Origin: Anaerolineae bacterium
GTDB lineage: Bacteria; Chloroflexota; Anaerolineae; B4-G1; SLSP01
DNA length: 52,572 nucleotides
Direction: 5' to 3'
NCBI GenBank assembly: GCA_026991395.1
Contig: JALXBP010000087.1
Coordinates: 1-52,572, forward strand
Position 1 is the stretch's first letter. Each line of letters opens with the position of its first letter. Under the pieces are notes generated by a model that saw only the letters and a program-made list of their open reading frames with translations, did no database searches and had not been told where the DNA came from. Made by a program: the position numbers and the translations under genes. This document shows positions 1-38,715 of the stretch, in pieces.

Positions 1-507
1 ATCCGGCGGCTGCGCGAACTGGAGACGGATCGGCGCATCCTGCGGGCGACGATGGAGGCGAAGGCGCAGGCGCTCAGTGCCGATGACCTGATCCGCCTGC
101 GTGCCGAGTACGAAGCCCGCCTGCAGGCGCAGGAGGAGGCGCACCGTCGCGCCCTGGCCGCGGCCCGCCGCGAAAGCGTCGCCGGTAGCCGCGCCGTCCT
201 CAAGGGGAAGATGGCCGAACAGATGGCTCCCCTCCTCCCCGGTTTCGACTACCTCCCCGCCGATGCCCGCTTCCTCGGCGATCCCGTGGACTACGTCGTC
301 TTCGACGGGTACAGTGCCTGCAAGGACGGAGGCGATTGCGCCTCCGTCGAGATCGTGATCCTCGACGTGAAGCAGGGGCAGGCGCGGCTCAGCCGTGGTC
401 AGCGGCTCATCGCCGAGGCGGTCGCCTCCGGTCGTGTCCGCTTCGAGGTCGTCCACGTGCGGGATGACGGCCGCATCGAGCGCCGCATCTGGCCGGAATC
501 GGACTGA
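1..507 (+). CDS. Holliday-junction-resolvase-like nuclease (Endonuc_Holl family), 5'-truncated
   Basis: The reading frame is open from base 1, so the start lies outside the window; an internal ATG sits at 52. The visible part starts with a charged, coiled-coil-like helix rich in Arg, Glu and Ala. It continues with the conserved core of the Holliday junction resolvase-related family: SRAVLKGKMAEQ, then LPGF, then LGDPVDYVVFDGY, then VEIVILDVKQGQARLS. Asp in the DPVDY segment and the Asp-x-Lys pair (ILDVK) fit a PD-(D/E)xK nuclease fold, with Asp where most members have Glu. Full-length relatives usually carry an N-terminal membrane helix before the coiled coil, which would lie upstream. The biological substrate of this family is not established. 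The SIS gene follows after 34 bases. Confidence 0.75.
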   Translation: MRRLRELETDRRILRATMEAKAQALSADDLIRLRAEYEARLQAQEEAHRRALAAARRESVAGSRAVLKGKMAEQMAPLLPGFDYLPADARFLGDPVDYVVFDGYSACKDGGDCASVEIVILDVKQGQARLSRGQRLIAEAVASGRVRFEVVHVRDDGRIERRIWPESD

Positions 508-541
508 GCTTTGCCCTGCCATCTTCCCGAAAGGAGCCGAG

Positions 542-1576
542 ATGAGCCTCATCGATGAGATTTTCTCGCAACCGGCGGTGCTCCGCGAGGCGATGAGGGC
601 CGAGTACGCGCACATCGAACGCATCGCCGCCCGGCTGCGCGATGCGGATGTGCGCTTCCTCTTCATCGCGGCGCGCGGAACGTCCGACAATGCCGCGCTG
701 TACGCCAAGTATCTCTTCGGGGCCTGCAACGGGCTGCCCGTCGCCCTGGCCGCGCCGTCGCTCTTCACCATCTACCGGCAGCCGCCGCGGGTGGAAGGAG
801 CGCTGGTGATCGGCATCTCGCAGTCTGGCCAATCGCCGGACATCGTCAGCGTGCTGGAGGAGGGACGGCGTCAGGGCGCGCCCACTCTGGCGATCACCAA
901 TGCGCCGGATTCGCCGCTGGCGCAGGCCGCCGACTTCGTCATCGACGTCCACGCCGGTGCCGAGTTGGCCGTCGCGGCGACGAAGAGCTACACGGCCCAA
1001 CTCCTCGCCGTCGCCATGCTCTCCGTTGCGCTGGAAGGCTCGGCGGAACGGCTCGAGGTGTTGCGCAGCGTGCCCGATCGCGTAGCGGAGATTCTGGAGC
1101 GGGCAGAGACCATCGAGCCGATGGCCGCCCGTTATCGCTATATGGAGCAGTGCGTGATCCTCGGGCGGGGCTACAACTACGCGACCGCCTTCGAGTGGGC
1201 CTTGAAGATGAAGGAGTTGACCTACACCGTTGCGCAGCCCTACTCCTCCGCCGACTTCCGCCACGGCCCCATCGCCGTCGTCGAGCGCGGCTTCCCCGTG
1301 ATGGCCGTCGCGCCGCACGGCGCTGTCTTCGACGATCTCCTGGCGCTCCTCCGCGAACTGGCGGAGGAGCGGCGCGCCGAGTTGGTCGTCGTCTCCGACG
1401 AGGAGGCCGCCCTCGCCACGGCCACGACTCCCCTGCCTATGCCCGCCGTGCCGGAGTGGGTCTCCCCGCTGATGAGCATCATTCCCGCCCAGCTTTTCAC
1501 CTTCTCCCTGACGGTCGCCCGCGGTCTGGACACGGAGCGCCCCCGCGGTCTGCGGAAGGTTACGCGAACGCGGTAG
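542..1576 (+). CDS. Two-domain SIS sugar-phosphate isomerase/deaminase (GlmS isomerase-like)
   Basis: A 344-residue protein made of two SIS (sugar isomerase) domains without the N-terminal glutaminase domain of GlmS. The first domain has ARGTSDNAA near residues 44-52 and the phosphate-binding GISQSGQSPD at 91-100. The second has ILGRGYNYATAFEWALKMKE near 200 and a C-terminal GLDTERPRGL tail matching the G-x-D-x-x-P-R end of GlmS/AgaS-type enzymes. Without a glutaminase, an aldose-ketose isomerase or amino-sugar-6-phosphate deaminase is more likely than glucosamine synthesis. The ATG at 542 is preceded by AAAGGAG at good spacing; a longer upstream frame only overlaps the previous gene. A strong terminator follows, so it is the last gene of its unit. 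Confidence 0.85.
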   Translation: MSLIDEIFSQPAVLREAMRAEYAHIERIAARLRDADVRFLFIAARGTSDNAALYAKYLFGACNGLPVALAAPSLFTIYRQPPRVEGALVIGISQSGQSPDIVSVLEEGRRQGAPTLAITNAPDSPLAQAADFVIDVHAGAELAVAATKSYTAQLLAVAMLSVALEGSAERLEVLRSVPDRVAEILERAETIEPMAARYRYMEQCVILGRGYNYATAFEWALKMKELTYTVAQPYSSADFRHGPIAVVERGFPVMAVAPHGAVFDDLLALLRELAEERRAELVVVSDEEAALATATTPLPMPAVPEWVSPLMSIIPAQLFTFSLTVARGLDTERPRGLRKVTRTR

Positions 1577-1588
1577 CGAGCGTATCAC

Positions 1589-1629
1589 AAGAGGCCGGCA
1601 GTATCCTCTCTGGGCACTGCCGGCCTCTT
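1589..1629 (+). terminator. Intrinsic terminator after SIS gene
   Basis: A perfect 14-bp stem (1589-1602 with 1616-1629) around a 13-base loop starts 13 bases after the SIS stop codon. The T tract after it is weak (TTCC), but the stem is long and G+C-rich. Confidence 0.7.
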
Positions 1630-1693
1630 CCTGACTTTGGCCTCCATAAACGAACTCTTATCCGCCGTTAATCCCGTTCTTATTTTCCCCGCG

Positions 1694-1699
1694 TATACT
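1694..1699 (+). promoter_or_regulatory. Possible -10 box for the dnaK cluster
   Basis: TATACT lies 56 bases before the dnaK start, in the only gap before the cluster. No convincing -35 box is found at the 16-base spacing used by other promoters here. No CIRCE inverted repeat (HrcA operator) is present, so heat control, if any, would have to work another way. A short GGGG-AGAAT-CCCC hairpin (1712-1724) lies in the predicted leader. Confidence 0.35.
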
Positions 1700-1755
1700 G
1701 CGGGTGCATTTGGGGAGAATCCCCGGAGGTATCATCAGAGACAAGGGAGGTTGAG

Positions 1756-3684
1756 ATGAGCAAGATCGTAGGGATCGACTTGGGAACGACCAACTCGGTT
1801 ATCGCCGTCATGGAGGGCGGCCAGGTTACGGTCATCCCCACGGCGGAAGGTGGCCGACTGTGCCCCTCCGTGGTGGCTTTCACGAAGAATGGGGAGCGTC
1901 TGGTCGGCGTGCCCGCCAAGCGGCAGGCGGTCGTCAACGCCGAAAACACCATCTACTCGGTCAAGCGGCTGATGGGACGCCGCTACGACGATCCGGAAGT
2001 CGAGATCACCAAGAAGATGGTTTCTTACGAGATCGTACCTGGCCCGCAGGGCGACGCCCGCGTGCGCGTGCCGGTCGTCAACAAGGTCTACACGCCGCAG
2101 GAGATCTCGGCGATGATCTTGCAGAAGCTGAAGAAGGACGCCGAGGCCTACTTAGGCGAGCCGGTTACGCAGGCGGTTATCACCGTACCGGCGTACTTCA
2201 ACGATAGCCAGCGACAGGCGACGAAGGACGCGGGGCAGATCGCCGGGCTGGAAGTGCTGCGCATCATCAACGAACCGACGGCAGCGGCGCTGGCCTACGG
2301 GCTGGACAAGAAGACGGACGAGACCATCCTCGTCTTCGACCTGGGTGGCGGCACCTTCGACGTCTCCATCCTCGAAGTGAGCGAGGGGATGATCGAGGTG
2401 CGGGCGACCAATGGCGACACCCACCTGGGTGGCGACGACTGGGACGAGCGCATCGTCCACTGGATGCTCGACGAGTTCAAGAAGGAGTACGGCATCGACC
2501 TGAGCCAGGATCGCCAGGCGATGCAGCGGCTGCGCGAGGCAGCGGAGAAGGCGAAGATCGAACTCTCCACGATGATGGAGACGGAGATCAACCTGCCCTT
2601 CATCACCGCCGACGCCTCCGGGCCGAAGCACCTGCAGATGCGCCTGACGCGCGCCAAGTTCGAGCAGTTGACGAAGGACCTGGTGGAGCGCTGCCGCGTT
2701 CCCTTCGAGAAGGCGCTGGCCGATGCCAAGCTGACGCCCGCCGATCTCGACGAGATCGTCCTCGTCGGTGGCGCGACCCGTATGCCGATGATCCAGCAGT
2801 TGGTGCGCGAACTGACCGGCGGCAAGGAGCCGCACAAGGGCGTCAACCCGGATGAGGTCGTCGCCGTCGGCGCGGCCATCCAGGGCGGCGTCCTCGCGGG
2901 CGAGGTCAAGGACATCCTCCTGCTCGACGTTACGCCGCTTTCGCTCGGCGTGGAGACGCTCGGAGGCCGGATGACCGTCCTCATCCCGCGCAACACGACC
3001 ATTCCGGTGCGCAAGTCGGAGATCTTCACCACGGCGACCGACGGTCAGACGGCGGTGGACATCAAGGTCTATCAGGGCGAGCGCCCGATGGCGGCGGACA
3101 ACATGCTGCTCGGCCAGTTCCGGCTGGACGGCATCCCGCCCGCGCCGCGCGGTGTGCCGCAGATCGAAGTCTCCTTCGACATCGACGCCAACGGCATCCT
3201 CAACGTCTCGGCGAAGGACAAGGCGACCGGGCGCGAGCAGAAGATCACCATCACCGCCTCCACCAACCTGAGCAAGGATGAGGTCGAGCGCCTGGTCGAG
3301 GAGGCCAAGCGCCACGAGGCCGAGGATCGCCGCAAGCGCGAACTGGTGGATGCCCGCAATGAAGCCGACGCGCTCATCTACCAGATGGAGAAGCTGCTGC
3401 GCGACGAGGGCGAGAAGGTTCCCGCCGACGTGCGCAGCGAGGTCGAGGCGAAGATCGAGGCCGTCAAGCAGGTGAAGGACGGCGACGATGCCACCGCCAT
3501 CCGCCGCGCGATGGACGAACTGCGCCAGGCGGCGATGAAGATCGGGCAGACGATGTACGGCGGCCAGACCGGTCCCCAGGGGCCGATGGGGCCGAACGTC
3601 GGGCCGGGGGCTGCGCCCGGCCCGCAGACGGGCGAAGGGCCGAGCGGCCCCGACGTCGTGGACGGCGAATATCGCGAGGTCTAA
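1756..3684 (+). CDS. dnaK: Molecular chaperone DnaK (Hsp70)
   Basis: A 642-residue full-length Hsp70. The ATPase domain begins with [13 protein letters not shown] at residues 6-18 and includes [11 protein letters not shown] and [11 protein letters not shown]; the linker [13 protein letters not shown] leads to the substrate-binding domain and a helical lid. The Gly/Pro-rich tail before [12 protein letters not shown] is typical of bacterial DnaK. It binds exposed hydrophobic segments of unfolded proteins in an ATP cycle driven by the J protein and GrpE, both encoded directly downstream. The start has GGGAGG six bases upstream. It is the first gene of the (+) stress cluster. Confidence 0.98.
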
Positions 3685-10757: not shown

Positions 10758-11921
10758 TCATTGCCGCCGTGCCAGCATCCGCTCGAAGAGGGCCTCGTAG
10801 TGCGACACCGTCTTTTCGGTGGAAAAGAGCGCCTCGATCTCGGCGCGGGGACGGCGGTAACGCTCGCGGTCGGCCAGGACGCGGAGGATTGCCTCGGCAA
10901 GGCCGCGTCCGTCGCCCACCGGGGCGATCTCCCCCATCCCCGTCTGGAGCACCGGCTGGCGCACGCCGGGCAGGTCGCTGGCGACGGAGGGGGTCCCGCA
11001 GAGCATCGCCTCCACCTGCACCAGCCCGAAGGATTCCGTCGAGTTGAGGCTGGGCACCGTCAGCACATCGAGGTTGGGGTAGAAGGCCGCCATCTCCTGC
11101 GGCGAGAGGACGCCGAAGAAGCGCCAGTGGCCCGCCGCTTCGTAGCGGCGGATGACGGGCATCAGGCGGCGGGCGTAGGCCCCCTCGCCGACGACGTGCT
11201 CGTACTGCCCGGCGAACCAGACCTGCGCCTGCGGATGGCGTTCGAGGATGAGGGGGAGCGCTTCCAGGAGCACCTCCACGCCCTTCTCGGCGGCGAAACG
11301 GGCGGCCATCCCGATGATCGGCCCCTTCCCCTGCGGATTGTGCTGCGCGCGGAAGGCGGCGATGGCCTCCGGCGGGGCGGCGGGCATCTCGACCGGCGGG
11401 GGGATGATGGTCAGCTTGTCGGCGAAGCGGCGCAGGTAGGGCGAATGGTCGGCGAAGTCCTGCGTGTAGGCCACGACGCGATGGGAAGCCCGCCCGGCGA
11501 GATCGTTCATCAGGTTCACGACGTGGTTGACGAGGGCGTTGAACGGCCCCATCGGCAGCTTGAGATCGCAGTGGTAGGTGAGGACGGTCGGCTTGTCGAG
11601 GAGCCGCCCGCGCAGCGCCACCCCCGCCGCGTCGAACTGCGGCAGGTGGAGGCTGATCACGTCGCTCCACAGCGCCCAGCGCCAGGCGTGCAGGCCTAAC
11701 GTCGGCATGATGACCCCCTTGCTGATGCGGAAGAGGACGGGGACGCGCACCACGCGCACGCCGTCCATCCGTTCCTCGTAGGGCAGGTCGCGGCGGAAGT
11801 GAGAGGTGAGGATGGTAACCTCGTGCCCGCGCCTGGCCAGGCCCCGCGCCATACGCTCGGCGTAGATCGTCAGCCCGCTGGTGTGAGGCCGGTAGTAGGT
11901 CAGCATGATGAGGATGCGCAC
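10758..11921 (-). CDS. GT4-family glycosyltransferase
   Basis: A 387-residue GT-B enzyme. The N-terminal domain starts RILIMLTYYRPHTSGLTIYAE, typical of family-4 enzymes that bind the acceptor. The C-terminal nucleotide-sugar domain has the E-x7-E-like segment STESFGLVQVEAMLCGTPSV. The start is a GTG at 11921 preceded by GGAGGT; a much longer frame running into the epimerase is only an overlapping open frame. It is the last gene of a three-gene (-) unit, 17 bases after the epimerase stop. It probably transfers a sugar to a lipid or glycan acceptor at the inner membrane face; donor and acceptor cannot be told from the sequence. Confidence 0.88.
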   Translation of the reverse strand: MRILIMLTYYRPHTSGLTIYAERMARGLARRGHEVTILTSHFRRDLPYEERMDGVRVVRVPVLFRISKGVIMPTLGLHAWRWALWSDVISLHLPQFDAAGVALRGRLLDKPTVLTYHCDLKLPMGPFNALVNHVVNLMNDLAGRASHRVVAYTQDFADHSPYLRRFADKLTIIPPPVEMPAAPPEAIAAFRAQHNPQGKGPIIGMAARFAAEKGVEVLLEALPLILERHPQAQVWFAGQYEHVVGEGAYARRLMPVIRRYEAAGHWRFFGVLSPQEMAAFYPNLDVLTVPSLNSTESFGLVQVEAMLCGTPSVASDLPGVRQPVLQTGMGEIAPVGDGRGLAEAILRVLADRERYRRPRAEIEALFSTEKTVSHYEALFERMLARRQ

Positions 11922-11938
11922 GCCGACGACCTCCTGCC

Positions 11939-12976
11939 TCAGTCCGCGAAGAGTTCCCGGTGGGCGACGACCCACTCGTACAGCCGCTCGATCCCTCTTT
12001 CGACGCCGACGCGCGGTCGCCAGTCGAGCAGCCGTGCCGCCTTGCGGATGTCGGAGACGTAGATGCGCTGGTCGCCGGGACGCCACGGGCCGTAGGCGAC
12101 GGGGACGGGATGGCCGGTCAGTTGCTCCAGCAGCGGCCCGAACTCCCGCCAGACCGAAAGCTGATTGTCCGGCCCGCCGCCGACGTTGAAGACCTCCCCC
12201 GCCACGCGGTCGATGCGGGCGATGGCGGCATCGTAGGCGTCGAGCAGGTCCTCGACGAAGAGGAGATCGCGCACCTGCTTGCCGTCGCCGTAGATGGTCA
12301 GCGGCCGTCCCGTCACGGCGGCGATGACGAACCAGGCCACCCAGCCCTGATCCTCGATGCCGAACTGGCGCGTGCCGTAGATGCAGCTTTGGCGGAAGAC
12401 GACCGTCGGCAGGCCGTAGATGCGGGCGTAGTCGCGCACGTACTGGTCGCCCGTCCCCTTGGAGCAGCCGTAGGGCGAGTGGAAGTCGAGCGGGAAGTCC
12501 TCCGCGATGCCGTGGGGGAAGTCGCGGTAGGCGTAGCGCGTCGCCTCCTCGACAACGGCGACCCCTTTCATCTCCCCGTACACCTTGTTCGTCGAAGCGT
12601 AGAGGACGACGGGGGGCGTATCGCGTCGCAGTGCGGCCAAGCGGGCGGCCTCCAGCACGTTGAAGGTGCCCAGCGCATTCGCCTCGAAGTCGGCGCGGGG
12701 ATGGAGCACCGAGGTCGTTACCGCCACCTGTCCCGCCAGGTGGACGATGACGTCGGCGGAGCCCGCCGTCGCGGTGAGCAGGGCCGCATCGCGCACGTCG
12801 CCTTCCACGAAGGTGAACCCCGTCTCCCCGAACTCGGCACGCAGCCAGGCCAGGTTGAGCACCGCGCCGCGGCGGGAGAGGTTGTCGTAGATGACGACGT
12901 CCTCGCCGCGGGCGATGAGCCGATGCGCATAGTTCGAGCCGATGAATCCGGCACCACCGGTGATCAGGTAACGCAT
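11939..12976 (-). CDS. NAD-dependent epimerase, CDP-paratose 2-epimerase-like
   Basis: A 345-residue extended short-chain dehydrogenase. The NAD-binding loop is TGGAGFIGSN at residues 6-15, followed by YDNLSRRG. The catalytic YxxxK is in SPYGCSKG. The segments ASTNKVYGEM, FRQSCIYGTRQFG, EDQGWVAWF and RPGDQRIYVSD are hallmarks of the RfbE/tyvelose epimerase subgroup, which converts CDP-paratose to CDP-tyvelose. No gene for making CDP-paratose is present here, so the natural substrate may be another nucleotide sugar. AGGAGGG lies just before the ATG. Eight bases separate it from the upstream membrane-protein gene. Confidence 0.88.
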   Translation of the reverse strand: MRYLITGGAGFIGSNYAHRLIARGEDVVIYDNLSRRGAVLNLAWLRAEFGETGFTFVEGDVRDAALLTATAGSADVIVHLAGQVAVTTSVLHPRADFEANALGTFNVLEAARLAALRRDTPPVVLYASTNKVYGEMKGVAVVEEATRYAYRDFPHGIAEDFPLDFHSPYGCSKGTGDQYVRDYARIYGLPTVVFRQSCIYGTRQFGIEDQGWVAWFVIAAVTGRPLTIYGDGKQVRDLLFVEDLLDAYDAAIARIDRVAGEVFNVGGGPDNQLSVWREFGPLLEQLTGHPVPVAYGPWRPGDQRIYVSDIRKAARLLDWRPRVGVERGIERLYEWVVAHRELFAD

Positions 12977-12984
12977 AGTCCCTC

Positions 12985-13938
12985 CTAATGTTCGACGCCC
13001 GCTGCTGCGGAGGTGATCTTCCCCAAGGAGAGGCCCCAAGCGGAAAGCGCCGCAATCCCCAGCAGCGAGCCGAGCAGATAGTTGATCAGATGGGCGACGA
13101 TGGCATAGGCGATCGCGCTCCCGTCGTCGATGCCGTAGCCCCGGGTGAGCACGAGGCGGATCGCTTCGTGGAAGGTGCCGATACCGCCGGGCGCGGGCAG
13201 GGCCATCCCGAAGGCCGTCGCCCAGGTTACCACCGCGCCGCCGAGTCGGGCCGAAAGGCCGAAGGCCCGCAGGGCGAGCGCGAAGGAGAGCGCCACGCCG
13301 CCCCACGTCAGCGCCGTCCAGAGGAGGATAGGCGGCCAGCGCCGCCACGACCCCATCGCTGCCAGTTCGCCCTGGAGCGCGAGCAGCCGCTCGACCAACG
13401 GGCGCAGCTTCGGTGGGATCGCCCATCGCCGCAGGTCGAGGCGCACCAGGGCGACGAAGGCCGCCAGCAGCCCCACCGTCCCCACGGCGGCCAGTAGCCC
13501 GGCATTCCGCGCCGAGGCGAGCGCGGGGATGAAGGGGAGCGTCGCCAGCAGGAGCAGGGCCACCGCGAGCAGGTCCAACGACCGTTCGACGACCATCGCC
13601 GAGAGCGCCGCCGTCGCCGAGAAGGGGGAGCGCCACGAGGTTACGAGCGCCTTGGCCACATCGCCCAGCCGCAGCGGGATGAGGTTGCTCACCAGGTAGC
13701 CGATGCCGATGATGCCCGTCGCCTCGCGCCAGGGCAGATGCCCGCCGGTGAGCAGCCGCCAGCGGTAGCCCCGTGCCATCAGGCCCAATGTGGCCGCCAC
13801 CGTCGCCGCCGCCACCCAGCCCCAGCGAGCACGGCGCAGGGCCGCTCCCAGCGCGGCGAAGTCGAGATGGTGGAGCGTCAACGCCAGCCCGATGCCCATA
13901 GTGAGCAGGGCGATCAGCACACGAGCCATCTTCCTCAT
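12985..13938 (-). CDS. Flippase-like membrane protein (UPF0104/LPG-synthase TM family)
   Basis: A 317-residue integral membrane protein with about eight hydrophobic helices, beginning RVLIALLTMGIGLALTLHH. The family pattern includes GYRWRLLTGG, the conserved YLVSNLIPLRLGDVAKAL and the ALPAPGGIGTFHEA segment near residue 245. Homologues (YbhN, AglD-type) often sit next to glycosyltransferases and are thought to move or modify lipid-linked sugars. Here it is the first gene of a unit with an epimerase and a GT4 transferase, consistent with glycolipid or surface-glycan assembly. A second in-frame ATG lies three codons in (13929). Confidence 0.85.
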   Translation of the reverse strand: MRKMARVLIALLTMGIGLALTLHHLDFAALGAALRRARWGWVAAATVAATLGLMARGYRWRLLTGGHLPWREATGIIGIGYLVSNLIPLRLGDVAKALVTSWRSPFSATAALSAMVVERSLDLLAVALLLLATLPFIPALASARNAGLLAAVGTVGLLAAFVALVRLDLRRWAIPPKLRPLVERLLALQGELAAMGSWRRWPPILLWTALTWGGVALSFALALRAFGLSARLGGAVVTWATAFGMALPAPGGIGTFHEAIRLVLTRGYGIDDGSAIAYAIVAHLINYLLGSLLGIAALSAWGLSLGKITSAAAGVEH

Positions 13939-34669: not shown

Positions 34670-34746
34670 GGTGGGCGTGGCCTAATGGTTAAGGCTCCTG
34701 ACTGTGGCTCAGGCAACTGTGGGTTCGAGTCCCACCGTCCACCCCA
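34670..34746 (+). tRNA. tRNA-His (GTG anticodon)
   Basis: Cloverleaf with 7-bp acceptor stem (34671-34677 with 34736-34742), anticodon GTG at 34704-34706 in a 7-base loop between CCTGA and TCAGG, and a T arm with GGTTCGAGTCC. The extra G at 34670 (position -1) faces C73 at 34743, the tRNA-His identity pair, so it is included. CCA is encoded (34744-34746). Confidence 0.96.
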
Positions 34747-34773
34747 AGGCCGACATGTTCGGCCTTCTTTTTT
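34746..34773 (+). terminator. Intrinsic terminator between the two tRNAs
   Basis: A perfect 8-bp stem (34746-34753 with 34759-34766, loop CATGT) followed by a C and six T's (34768-34773). It starts on the last A of the tRNA-His CCA end and stops one base before tRNA-Arg. Confidence 0.85.
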
Positions 34774-34774
34774 A

Positions 34775-34848
34775 GCCCCCGTGGCTCAATTGGACAGAGC
34801 ATCTGACTTCGGATCAGAGAGTTGCAGGTTCGAGTCCTGCCGGGGGTA
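34775..34848 (+). tRNA. tRNA-Arg (TCG anticodon)
   Basis: Acceptor stem GCCCCCG (34775-34781) with CGGGGGT (34841-34847), D-loop with AATTGGA, anticodon stem TCTGA/TCAGA and anticodon TCG at 34809-34811, T arm GGTTCGAGTCC. It reads CGA codons. CCA is not encoded. It follows directly after a terminator, with no separate promoter recognised. Confidence 0.95.
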
Positions 34849-34899: not shown

Positions 34900-36018
34900 T
34901 TAGCGCCCCAAGTGCATCGGCATCACGACGTAGACGAAGCTGTCCTCCATACCCACGGCGCGGATGACGCCGGGAGCGGTCGGCGTGGTCATCGAGAGGG
35001 CGACTTGCGGCACGTCGAGGGCGCTGAGGGCATCCATCAGGAAGCGGACGTTGAAGGCGATAGTCAGAGGCTCCCCTTCCACTTCGGCGGCGAGGCGGGT
35101 CTTCACCTCGCCGACTTCGTTGGAGGTCGCCGAGATGGTAACCTCGCCTTGGCCGATCTCCAGCTTGACGATGTTGGAGATGGTGCGGGCGACGATGGCG
35201 GCCCGCTTGCAGGCCATCAGCATCTCTGCGCGACCCACGACGAGGCGCGTCTTGTGGCTCTGCGGGATGATGCGGCGGTAGTCGGGGAAGTTGCCCTCGA
35301 TGAGCTGGGTGTTCAGCACCGTATCGGGCATGCGGAAGAGGACCTGGTTGTGCAATGGTGTTGTCTCGATCTGGACCGGCTCCTCGTGCCCGCTGAGGAT
35401 GCGCATCAACTCGCCCAAGGCCCGTGCGGGGACGATGACGGAGAACGGCTCGCTCACGGGGGTGATGAGCGGCAGGTGACGGACGGCCAGCCGAAACCCG
35501 TCGGCGGCGGCGAGGGTGAGGGTCTCCTGCTCGAACTCGGCCAGGACGCCGGTCAGCACGGGATGGCTCTCGTCGGTCGAGGCGGCGAAGATGACCTGTT
35601 CCAGCGCTTCGCGCAATGCTCCCGCCTCGACGGCGATAGCGCCGGAACCGTCGCTTTCCGGGATCGGGGGGAACTCATCGACCGGCAAGCCGCGGAAGGC
35701 GGCGCTGTTTTCCCCGCTGGCGAGGTGGAGCGTGAGCGACTGGGGCTCCAGCATCATCGTAACCTGCTCCGCGGGGAGCGAGTTGATCCAGTCGCTGAGG
35801 TCTCGTGCCGGAACGGTGATCCCGCCTTCCTCTTCGATCATCGCGCCCACCCAGTGGACGATGCTCAGTTCCAGGTTCGTGGAAGCCAGCTTGAGCCGTC
35901 CTTCATCGGTGGCGAGCAGGACGTTGCCCAGGATGGGCATCGTCGTCCGAGAAGGGACGGCTCGCCCCACGATCCCCAAGCCACGCGCCAGGTTTTCCTG
36001 CAAGCACGAGAGTTTCAT
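34900..36018 (-). CDS. dnaN: DNA polymerase III sliding clamp (beta subunit)
   Basis: A 372-residue beta clamp with three repeated domains. It begins MKLSCLQENLARGLGIVGRA and contains the N-terminal VPSRTTMPILGNVLL, the middle-domain FAASTDESHPVLTGV, GNFPDYRRIIP and the C-terminal end VYVVMPMHL (the M-P-M/V-R/H-L clamp tail). It rings DNA and tethers the replicative polymerase. The start at 36018 has GAGGAGG 6 bases upstream; a longer frame would pass through the promoter. It is last in a (-) series after the NucS-like gene but has its own promoter. No dnaA gene or DnaA-box cluster is nearby. Confidence 0.97.
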   Translation of the reverse strand: MKLSCLQENLARGLGIVGRAVPSRTTMPILGNVLLATDEGRLKLASTNLELSIVHWVGAMIEEEGGITVPARDLSDWINSLPAEQVTMMLEPQSLTLHLASGENSAAFRGLPVDEFPPIPESDGSGAIAVEAGALREALEQVIFAASTDESHPVLTGVLAEFEQETLTLAAADGFRLAVRHLPLITPVSEPFSVIVPARALGELMRILSGHEEPVQIETTPLHNQVLFRMPDTVLNTQLIEGNFPDYRRIIPQSHKTRLVVGRAEMLMACKRAAIVARTISNIVKLEIGQGEVTISATSNEVGEVKTRLAAEVEGEPLTIAFNVRFLMDALSALDVPQVALSMTTPTAPGVIRAVGMEDSFVYVVMPMHLGR

Positions 36019-36051
36019 CCCCGCCTCCTCGTTGTTGGTTGATCTGTTTTC

Positions 36052-36079
36052 AGTATACCGAAGAGCAGCCAAAGGGCAA
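36052..36079 (-). promoter_or_regulatory. Vegetative promoter for dnaN
   Basis: On the minus strand TTGCCC (plus-strand 36074-36079), a 16-base spacer and TATACT (36052-36057), in the gap after the NucS-like gene. Transcription would start about 28 bases before dnaN. Confidence 0.7.
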
Positions 36080-36138
36080 CCGCGCCGCCCTTTCGCCTGC
36101 CGGGATGGTGCATCCTGCTCAGGTGATCGGCGGAGGTG

Positions 36139-36705
36139 TCAGGATTCTCCCACCGGCTCGAAGGTGAATCGAAAACGGTAGCGGCGCAATTGTACACTCG
36201 GAATCGCTTTTACCGCGAAGACAATGCGCGGGTGGAAATCGGCGGCGACCAAAATACCTCGCACGTTCTCATCTCCTCGCTCTCCGATGACTCCTATGTA
36301 GGCCAGAAGTTGAGTCAGAGCTTGTGGAGAGGCTTTTCCTGCTTTTAGTTCGATGACGACGATAGTACCGGCTGCGTCCTTGGCGAGGATGTCGATTCGC
36401 CCGGCCTCCGTCACGAACTCTTTGCCTCCATCGATGACGACCAGCCCCTCTTCGAGTTGTTGGATGTTCGAACGTAACGCAATCTGCAGATCGCGCTCGA
36501 GGCCGAACGTTGTTTCCTCCGCATCGATGAGTTCATCGGTGGCAGGGGAAGGGATCTCCCTGTAAGTCCCCATCGTCAAGTGAGCTTTGATGGCGCTGAC
36601 CGTTTGAGGCGAAACTCCAACCTCTTCGGCGATCTTCCAACGATCGTCTCCTTCTTGGAGCATGGAGATGATCAGCCTTCTCTGGCTCTCGGAAATGCCT
36701 GTCAT
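36139..36705 (-). CDS. HTH-fused NucS-like endonuclease domain protein
   Basis: A 188-residue protein. Residues 1-45 form a helix-turn-helix (RWKIAEEVGVSPQTVSAIK). Residues about 66-185 match the catalytic domain of NucS/EndoMS: Glu70 (GLERDLQ), FVTEAGRIDILAKD with Asp105, VVIELKAG with Glu119 and Lys121, then ALTQLLAYIG and a C-terminal RRYRFRFTFEP strand. In archaea and actinobacteria NucS cuts at mismatches together with the clamp. The usual N-terminal dimerisation domain is replaced by the HTH, and no QLxLF clamp-binding tail is visible. It starts 7 bases after the M16 gene and lies beside dnaN. Codon bias is weaker than in its neighbours. Confidence 0.75.
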   Translation of the reverse strand: MTGISESQRRLIISMLQEGDDRWKIAEEVGVSPQTVSAIKAHLTMGTYREIPSPATDELIDAEETTFGLERDLQIALRSNIQQLEEGLVVIDGGKEFVTEAGRIDILAKDAAGTIVVIELKAGKASPQALTQLLAYIGVIGERGDENVRGILVAADFHPRIVFAVKAIPSVQLRRYRFRFTFEPVGES

Positions 36706-36712
36706 CTGTGAT

Positions 36713-37945
36713 TTACCCCCCTTCGTGGCCTCGCGTATCGGCCAGAGCCTCTCGCCACCGCTCCAGGTGGGGCGGTCTCGTCGGGCCGACGACCGCGATG
36801 AAGCAGTTCTCCGCTCGGAATAACCTGCGGCTCAGTTGTCGCAGATGCTCCGCCGTAACTCGTTGCACACGCTGTTCCAGGGCGGCGAATCCCGGAAAGC
36901 TCTCTTGCCAAGGCCCCCATTTCGTGAGGAACCACATCGCCCGCTCCGGATCGTAGGCCTGTTTGAGCAGACGGAAGCGGAATACGCGCTTGGCCCACGC
37001 CAGTTCCTGCTCCGGGATACCGGCCTCGCGCACTCGCCGCAGCAACTCGACCAGGGCATCCCAGGCTGCTCGTTCCTGACCTGCACCGATCACCCCCACG
37101 TAGATCCCGAATCGTCCGGCGTCGGAGAGGAAGCGGACCTTGCTTTCGACCATATAGGCCAGCATCTCGTCTCGTTCCAGGGCTTTGTAGAGGAGGGAAT
37201 TCCCGTAATTGCCGAATACGATGCTCAGGAGTTCCAGCAGGAGCGGGTCTTCCTCCGGCGGGAAGCGAAAGCCGATGTACATCTCCGGCTGGATGTTTGT
37301 CCTCTTTTCGTAGAAGCTCTGTCGATCGTGGCGGTGCTCGACGGGGAAGGGATGCTCGCCTCCCGGCAAGTGGTCGAGCGCCTCGATCCGGGCGCGAATC
37401 GCAGCCTCGTCGATGTCGCCGACGACGATCAGGTGCGCATTCCCCGGATGGTAGTACCGTGCTTGCCAGGCGAGCAGGTCCTGCCGTCGAATCCGTTCCA
37501 CGGTAGCCCTCTCCCCCAGGCTGTGCAGTTCGTCCGTCTGGAAGATCATATCGTCCACTTTGAGGCGCACCCATTCCCACGCCGTGTAATCCGCCGGACT
37601 GGCAACGGTGGCGATGATGTCGCGGCGCTCGCGCTCTATGGCCGCCGCCTCCATACGCGGATGGAAGACCATATCGATGAGGACGGAGAGCAAAGGCTCG
37701 AAATCCTCCCGCAGGGCGGTGAAGGCAAATATGGTATCCTCCGCCAATGTCGGGCCGTCGATTTGGACCCCCAGGCGGGCGGTCTCGCCGTCGATGTCGG
37801 GATAGTGCAGCGAGCCCAAGTAGTGCGCGTGTTCCAGAAAATGGCATAGTCCCCTCAGGTGGGGCGGTTCGTGTCTCCACCCTGTGTGCACGGCGATGGC
37901 GGCGGAGACCAGGGGATGGGCTATGCGGTGTGTGTAGAGATTCAT
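36713..37945 (-). CDS. M16-family (inverzincin) metallopeptidase
   Basis: A 410-residue M16 peptidase. The inverted zinc motif HxxEH is present as LCHFLEHAHYLG with His35, Glu38 and His39, and the downstream ERERRDII helix lies where the third ligand region is expected. The second half is the inactive structural repeat, with ALERDEMLAYMVES matching family members. No signal peptide is present, so it is probably cytoplasmic. The ATG at 37945 follows GGAGGG; an ATG four codons earlier is less well placed. It lies between a methyltransferase and the NucS-like gene, both in the same direction. Confidence 0.87.
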   Translation of the reverse strand: MNLYTHRIAHPLVSAAIAVHTGWRHEPPHLRGLCHFLEHAHYLGSLHYPDIDGETARLGVQIDGPTLAEDTIFAFTALREDFEPLLSVLIDMVFHPRMEAAAIERERRDIIATVASPADYTAWEWVRLKVDDMIFQTDELHSLGERATVERIRRQDLLAWQARYYHPGNAHLIVVGDIDEAAIRARIEALDHLPGGEHPFPVEHRHDRQSFYEKRTNIQPEMYIGFRFPPEEDPLLLELLSIVFGNYGNSLLYKALERDEMLAYMVESKVRFLSDAGRFGIYVGVIGAGQERAAWDALVELLRRVREAGIPEQELAWAKRVFRFRLLKQAYDPERAMWFLTKWGPWQESFPGFAALEQRVQRVTAEHLRQLSRRLFRAENCFIAVVGPTRPPHLERWREALADTRGHEGG

Positions 37946-37992
37946 CGTACCCTCCATGCGATCATCGTTTGGGAAGCGCCGAGTAGCGGGGC

Positions 37993-38715
37993 TTACGCGC
38001 TGCCTGTGATCATCATCTCGATGTCCTCTATCTGCAGTGCTTGTCCCTCGAAGTGGCCGGGGGCGCAGCCGCAGACCTGCACCGCTTTGAACCCCGCCAT
38101 CTCGAACAGCATACGTGCTTCCGAGGGGATGTACAGCCGCATCTCTTCCTGCAGCGGCTCCCCCTCCCATTCTGGGGGCGTCTCCCAGTGCTGCAGGCCG
38201 TCCACGAAGCGAAAGCGCTCATCGCCTTCCTTCCATCGGCGATAGCGTCTCAGCCCGTTGAACGTCGTCAGGATGAGCTTGCCTTCCGGCTTCAGCGCCT
38301 TCTTGACCGCTTGGAGGAAGGCCAAATCCGCCCGCCATCCGCCCAGCACGCCCAGGCCCGACTCGCAGATGGCTATGGCTCCGTCGAAGGCGACGGCGGC
38401 ATCCAGCAGCTTCGGCAGATCGGCCAGGCTGCCCTGCACGAAGGCAACGTCCACACCGGCCTCTGCGGCGCGTTGTCGCGCGACCTCGAGGAGCCAGGGG
38501 GAAATGTCGATGCCGGTAACCCGGTAGCCGCGCAAGGCCAATTCGATGGCGTGGCGGCCCGCGCCGCATCCCAAATCCAGGATGCGGGCCGCTGGCTTGA
38601 CGCCCAAGGCGCGCTCGATGAAGTCCACCTCCTGAGGGGTGTGCGGTAGAAAGGCGGCGTCGATGTGCTTCAGCGACTCCTCGGCAAATCGTTTGTCCTC
38701 CCACGGACTGCCCAT
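37993..38715 (-). CDS. Class I SAM-dependent methyltransferase
   Basis: A 240-residue Rossmann-fold methyltransferase. Motif I is ILDLGCGAGRHAIELA (about residues 45-60), followed by VTGIDISPWLLEVAR and a motif IV-like AICESGLGVLG. The C-terminal half has LILTTFNGLRRYRRWKEGD, a pattern of small-molecule methyltransferases of unknown substrate. The start ATG at 38715 follows AAAGGAGG. It is 47 bases upstream of the M16 gene, with the histidine kinase 69 bases before it, so cotranscription is likely but unproven. Confidence 0.85.
   Translation of the reverse strand: MGSPWEDKRFAEESLKHIDAAFLPHTPQEVDFIERALGVKPAARILDLGCGAGRHAIELALRGYRVTGIDISPWLLEVARQRAAEAGVDVAFVQGSLADLPKLLDAAVAFDGAIAICESGLGVLGGWRADLAFLQAVKKALKPEGKLILTTFNGLRRYRRWKEGDERFRFVDGLQHWETPPEWEGEPLQEEMRLYIPSEARMLFEMAGFKAVQVCGCAPGHFEGQALQIEDIEMMITGSA

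Follow-up and report, generated by a model that had tools for sequence, protein, structure and literature searches.

The helix-turn-helix (HTH) and NucS_C fusion encoded beside the sliding clamp gene in an Anaerolineae genome belongs to a genuine protein family, present in several bacterial phyla and in two archaea, and close relatives of this gene have spread between bacteria and archaea. A functional tie of the family to the clamp or to mismatch repair is not supported, and some of its members are integron gene cassettes or derive from one. The interpretation that we favour, with moderate confidence, is that these proteins are stand-alone, mobile, HTH-targeted accessory nucleases, independent of the clamp and outside mismatch repair, and that they most likely cut foreign DNA. 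The gene and its surroundings are arranged as follows in the window, by which we mean the whole stretch of 52,572 nucleotides that was analysed:

36713 to 37957, minus strand: M16 peptidase gene (PF05193 and PF00675), ending 7 nt before the start of nucS
36139 to 36705, minus strand: HTH-NucS_C gene (nucS), 188 aa, with full-length relatives 67-70% identical in L053 and L054
36562 to 36705, minus strand: HTH domain, residues 1-48, with helices at 6-17, 22-29 and 33-44 in the model, ending in a conserved IKAHxTMGTY motif
36517 to 36561, minus strand: variable linker, residues 49-63, with pLDDT below 50 at 50-61 and a mean pairwise identity of 40%
36157 to 36516, minus strand: NucS_C PD-(D/E)XK nuclease domain, residues 64-183, defined by PF01939, Foldseek alignment to 2vld and residue invariance
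36052 to 36079, minus strand: promoter-like site in the nucS-dnaN gap, just upstream of dnaN, with 9 of 12 matches
34900 to 36018, minus strand: dnaN, sliding clamp (TIGR00663, 305 bits), whose adjacency to nucS is not conserved and which we judge a functionally unrelated neighbour

A sequence-only reading had described the nucS product as a shortened NucS with an N-terminal HTH, and this description is borne out. Residues 70-159 match NucS_C (PF01939) at 52.6 bits against a Pfam cut-off of 24, and residues 5-42 match HTH_23 at 23.8 bits, slightly below the cut-off of 24.6; the HTH is nonetheless no chance match, because HTH_23 is matched in all ten members of the aligned family and the structure model shows three helices. 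The model (mean pLDDT 81.8) consists of these helices, a low-confidence linker (50-61) and a nuclease fold, and its best solved-structure matches in Foldseek are NucS of P. abyssi and EndoMS of T. kodakarensis (the top three chains superpose with an rmsd of 1.6-1.9 A). For the nuclease part and 2vld, the P. abyssi enzyme, the rmsd is 1.6 A and the identity 31%, and E70 aligns with residue 127 of that structure. The catalytic residues named from the sequence (Asp105, Glu119 and Lys121) were correctly identified: E70, D105, E119, K121, Q132 and Y136 are invariant in 10/10 aligned members, the alignment being made without L060, where the frame is broken, and L075/L076, which contain a stop and are cut short. 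Conservation is highest in the recognition helix (76% identity), followed by the nuclease domain (65%) and by helices 1-2 (51%).

The window protein therefore has the nuclease domain and catalytic residues of NucS/EndoMS (2vld, 5gke; NF003270, NF002876), but in place of the N-terminal domain that serves DNA-binding and dimerisation in NucS, to which Pfam gives no match, it has the HTH. Its scores against the full-length NCBIfam models NF003270 and NF002876 are 74.4 and 40.5 bits, far under the respective cut-offs of 216 and 252. No other NucS_C match occurs in the window genome (G000).

The position of nucS before dnaN had suggested a partnership with the clamp. The arrangement itself is real, since dnaN starts 120 bp past the nucS stop on the same strand, and the M16 peptidase gene also lies on that strand; the partnership fails the refutation test proposed with that reading, as the adjacency was seen in this genome only and the nuclease domain groups with accessory NucS_C proteins. 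No dnaN was found near related NucS_C genes at any of 40 loci (384,946 bases, some redundant), a search in which the dnaN profile recovered its positive control, and neither nucS nor an M16 gene flanks dnaN at any of the 24 family dnaN loci outside the window genome, the flanks reaching up to 1.5 kb, with 159 and 0 bases upstream at L107 and L121. The clamp gene is present in 23 of the 24 genomes of the family, and genome G014 has two extra copies (L123, L124), about 43-44% identical to the window dnaN. With its own promoter-like site in the gap, dnaN need not depend on nucS. Promoter-like sites in the region number two, where shuffling leads one to expect 0.7. The adjacency, seen in the window genome only, is apparently a matter of chance. 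Just past the end of dnaN, on the opposite strand, tRNA-His (gtg) and tRNA-Arg (tcg) genes occupy 34671-34848.

Actinobacterial NucS is described as carrying a C-terminal clamp-binding motif (PMC8228993). The absence of such a tail, already remarked on from the sequence, extends to all 11 HTH proteins including that of the window, under a relaxed pattern that was positive in one of five canonical NucS rows (Tsukamurella, in the relaxed form; the Nonomuraea row is cut short). NucS and MutSL are usually alternatives to each other according to passages in two accounts (PMC5290159, PMC8228993), with the Halobacteria and Deinococcus-Thermus given as exceptions in one of them (PMC5290159). The window genome contains MutS1 (at a contig edge), MutS2 and MutL, which argues against a replacement of the NucS type, and MutL was found in 10 of the 11 other carriers of HTH-NucS_C. 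On a midpoint-rooted tree of the nuclease domain with long branches, a 99/99 branch separates five canonical NucS sequences, taken from plasmid-collection records and two of them actinobacterial, from every HTH and accessory protein (rows L021, L027, L029, L006 and L033 were left out). The proposal of an HTH-targeted mismatch nuclease thus survives in part: targeting by the HTH is a fair reading of the fusion and its intact catalytic residues, whereas a role in mismatch repair does not stand, given MutS/MutL and a position outside the canonical clade. The HTH label itself is not one clade on this tree, changing five times, and swaps of the N-terminus are therefore likely, though many of the forks are weak.

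HTH-NucS fusions, a search for which was suggested with the sequence-only reading, do occur in other genomes, and their distribution is patchy. A relative is present in 45 of the 396 genomes of the class, with the HTH covered by only two matches, in the window genome and in G054. Named genomes, when scanned, yielded 24 loci, half with an HTH and half with other N-termini; the 12 HTH copies come from Acidobacteria, Anaerolineae, Desulfothermus, Poribacteria, WOR-3, Truepera and Bacteroidetes, and from the archaea Methanolinea and Methanocellaceae, the Methanocellaceae genome having a second, intact copy (L090). Three of the 12 are broken, by a frame disruption at L060 and by a stop and truncation at L075 and L076; beside the broken gene at L075 (3032-5124) are transposase-like and tyrosine recombinase genes, IS91-like as judged by eye. 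An all-against-all ORF comparison of 27 loci gave no conserved gene neighbour among the matches listed, where what recurs is redundant records (L035/L054, L036/L065, L075/L076), recombinase genes (L061, L075/L076) and common protein families. The phage collection gave no match to the window protein, nor did viral contigs yield a confirmed relative; plasmid matches, in 25 records, concern the nuclease domain only, none covering 80% of the query. The window gene also looks like a recent acquisition by its foreign composition: its GC3 of 60.8% is the lowest of 36 genes (85.4% +/- 5.5 for the 35 others, z -4.5), a set picked by hand from mechanical ORFs in which the start may be misplaced for one ORF (10758-13055) or more.

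Movement as a cassette is indicated by the relatives. The Poribacteria (L057) and WOR-3 (L058) copies match over a stretch with sharp limits, which opens at -31/-30 before the ATG and closes at +113/+122 past the stop, and the homology of L058 with L060 and with L075 likewise has its 5' edge at -35 to -30; a 5' homology edge near one core site is thus found in four lineages, one of them archaeal. Integron attC sites have the core consensus GTTRRRY/RYYYAAC. Two segments of L057 (814-903 and 2030-2120) take the attC form, with GTATAAC/GCCTAAC, further on GTTAGGC/GTTAGGT, and a long inverted repeat; a strict scan recovered these two sites and none in 849,870 shuffled bases, and both fold as single-stranded DNA (z -4.4 and -5.9). 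Past the gene, L057 and L058 each have a weaker attC-like site, with scores of 9.6 and 8.9; a score of 8.5 was attained at random positions in 47 of 2400 trials. A covariance model (R1) built from these four sites detected others outside its training set, past the gene in L055 (3e-7) and L060 (0.0026), which may descend from the same cassette and hence are not independent, and, in L058, in the interval that separates two genes ahead of it (1.5e-4). Across eight carrier genomes the model found sites in G403, G405, G406 and G408, and none in G000, G402, G404 or G411.

The L057 and L058 copies are therefore bounded as integron gene cassettes are, by an attC-like site past the ORF and a GTT core site at the 5' edge before it, with the qualification that the L058 core site is imperfect and that the sites past the ORF score below those in front. 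The cassette preceding HTH-NucS in L057 encodes a NucS_C-DUF4268 protein with a full-length match to the PADLOC phage-defence candidate PDC-S11 (4e-93). L057 as a whole (1-3228) has the layout of a small cassette array, in the order unknown ORF, attC, NucS_C-DUF4268 (PDC-S11), attC, HTH-NucS, attC-like site and the start of HsdM. In L058 an attC-like site (545-650) lies upstream of HTH-NucS, flanked by genes for a DUF1801 protein and an ADP-ribosylglycohydrolase, and three loci of Methanocellaceae archaeon UBA148 (L133, L136, L141) have attC-like sites, one about 3 kb from the second HTH-NucS, L090. Two other candidates were set aside: a strict attC match at L019/L046 looks more like a hairpin in an ordinary intergenic gap (fold z -1.87), and an attC-like repeat upstream in L075, found under relaxed settings (score 14.0), is missed by the R1 model and is not used as proof. 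An integron integrase exceeds the cut-off in 2 of 12 carrier genomes (G402, and G403 with a stop codon) against 0 of 14 controls, which we do not claim as enrichment; sub-cut-off matches occur in all 14 controls and hence were not counted. Unlike these cassettes, the window copy has neither an attC past the ORF nor a core site before it, in the window or in the rest of its genome, which has no integrase above the cut-off; together with L053 and L054 it shows no attC and no common flank, the homology ending at the ORF ends. Restriction and anti-phage genes in integron cassettes, and transfer of integrons between archaea and bacteria, have been reported (PMC9668308, PMC12444791).

The family has partial analogues among known systems. 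Accessory NucS_C fusions, annotated as 'endonuclease NucS domain-containing protein' or DUF91, have the same domain behind other N-terminal modules, such as DUF7669 (L095) or ones unmatched in Pfam, in contrast to the HTH with its IKAHxTMGTY end. A shared N-terminal module with an HPMKxWLR-like motif precedes NucS_C in L063-L066 and L071, in L065 without a Pfam match. That the C-terminal domain of NucS occurs in different architectures and was transferred to bacteria has been noted before (PMC5290159). The window protein also shares its nuclease domain with the PADLOC candidates PDC-S02 (1.2e-14) and PDC-S11 (7.3e-11), the HTH lying outside both matches. Other combinations of PD-(D/E)XK and HTH domains have been discussed (PMC1189080); NaeI and COG1395 are alike in this combination but differ in nuclease subfamily and domain order. 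Unlike type II restriction-modification, the window gene has no cognate DNA methyltransferase among the near neighbours scanned, none being directly beside it, and the nearest methyltransferase gene (37993-38715) matches the general Methyltransf_31/25 models.

Four other roles have to be weighed against the cutting of foreign DNA. A repair nuclease that acts without the clamp on DNA that is damaged or branched, and that the HTH anchors non-specifically, is unlikely in our view, yet it is the competitor that we take most seriously. Among solved structures the nearest are those of NucS and EndoMS, both repair enzymes, a conserved recognition helix suits recognition by structure better than by diversified sequence, and one WOR-3 neighbour, a single case, has an O6-methylguanine methyltransferase DNA-binding domain; presence in two of 396 class genomes, the broken copies L060 and L075/L076, carriage on cassettes and the lack of conserved repair neighbours are hard to reconcile with such a role. 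We think it most improbable that the protein belongs to the NucS pathway and cuts mismatches in partnership with the clamp encoded next to it: a complete set of catalytic residues in a NucS_C domain and a dnaN gene directly downstream would favour it, but dnaN and nucS are apart at all 40 and all 24 loci compared, the clamp motif and the NucS N-terminal domain are missing, MutS and MutL are present, the protein falls outside the canonical clade, and the family spans archaea, with PCNA as their clamp, and bacteria, with the beta clamp.

The remaining two roles concern the gene's own propagation or control. A selfish nuclease that, like a homing endonuclease, promotes its own spread by cutting sites where the gene is absent would be consistent with scattering across phyla, a low GC content and broken copies that in part lie beside mobile elements; such a role is improbable, since neighbourhoods differ between independent loci and attC-like sites already account for movement in two lineages. 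That the protein is chiefly a DNA-binding regulator, repressing its own or a neighbouring gene with nuclease activity secondary, agrees with an N-terminal HTH of homeodomain/resolvase-like type and is very improbable, as the catalytic residues are invariant in all ten members and the upstream sequences of independent loci are unrelated except for the cassette leader, so that no shared operator is seen.

Foreign-DNA cutting remains the leading reading because a cassette gene must work without partners, because PDC-S11 and the start of HsdM accompany HTH-NucS in L057, and because defence genes are reported as cassettes. Fold, catalytic residues, spread, lack of clamp association and, in relatives, cassette boundaries are all demonstrated for HTH-NucS_C. 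We propose that the HTH would bind DNA and that the PD-(D/E)XK domain, held on a flexible linker, would cut nearby; the protein is probably a dimer, so that both strands may be cut, and it would act without the clamp and apart from mismatch repair, most likely on foreign DNA. The gene would move horizontally, in part of the family as a cassette of ORF and attC, and movement of this kind would explain why it is scattered over bacteria and archaea and why it has no partners. Several observations count against this proposal: the window copy, L053 and L054 show no attC, no DNA methyltransferase stands directly beside the window gene, few carriers have an integrase above the cut-off, and neither the phage collection nor viral contigs gave a confirmed relative. 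In addition, restriction enzymes diversify their target, whereas the recognition helix is conserved here, which makes a classical restriction enzyme less likely and is compatible with the clamp-independent repair nuclease. From the alignment, this conservation suggests either a single target shared by the members or contacts that depend on DNA shape. More speculatively, and with considerable doubt, the family may be a one-gene anti-phage or anti-plasmid nuclease derived from the cutting half of mismatch repair and passed between bacteria and archaea as an integron cassette, its conserved recognition helix reading a single feature that invading DNA has in common whatever the host.

The passages of literature returned by our searches contain no description of an HTH-NucS family. 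What this analysis adds is the delimitation of the HTH-NucS_C family, its independence from clamp and MutSL status, and the cassette boundaries, the last without any claim of being unpublished. The tempting link between a NucS-like enzyme and the clamp is removed as unsupported, and in its place the NucS nuclease domain is seen to circulate in the form of a DNA-binding nuclease that is mobile and stands alone. The cassette boundaries make its function directly testable, because a gene carried as a cassette is expected to work unaided. If it is indeed a defence nuclease, repair and defence would have one cutting domain in common across both prokaryotic domains.
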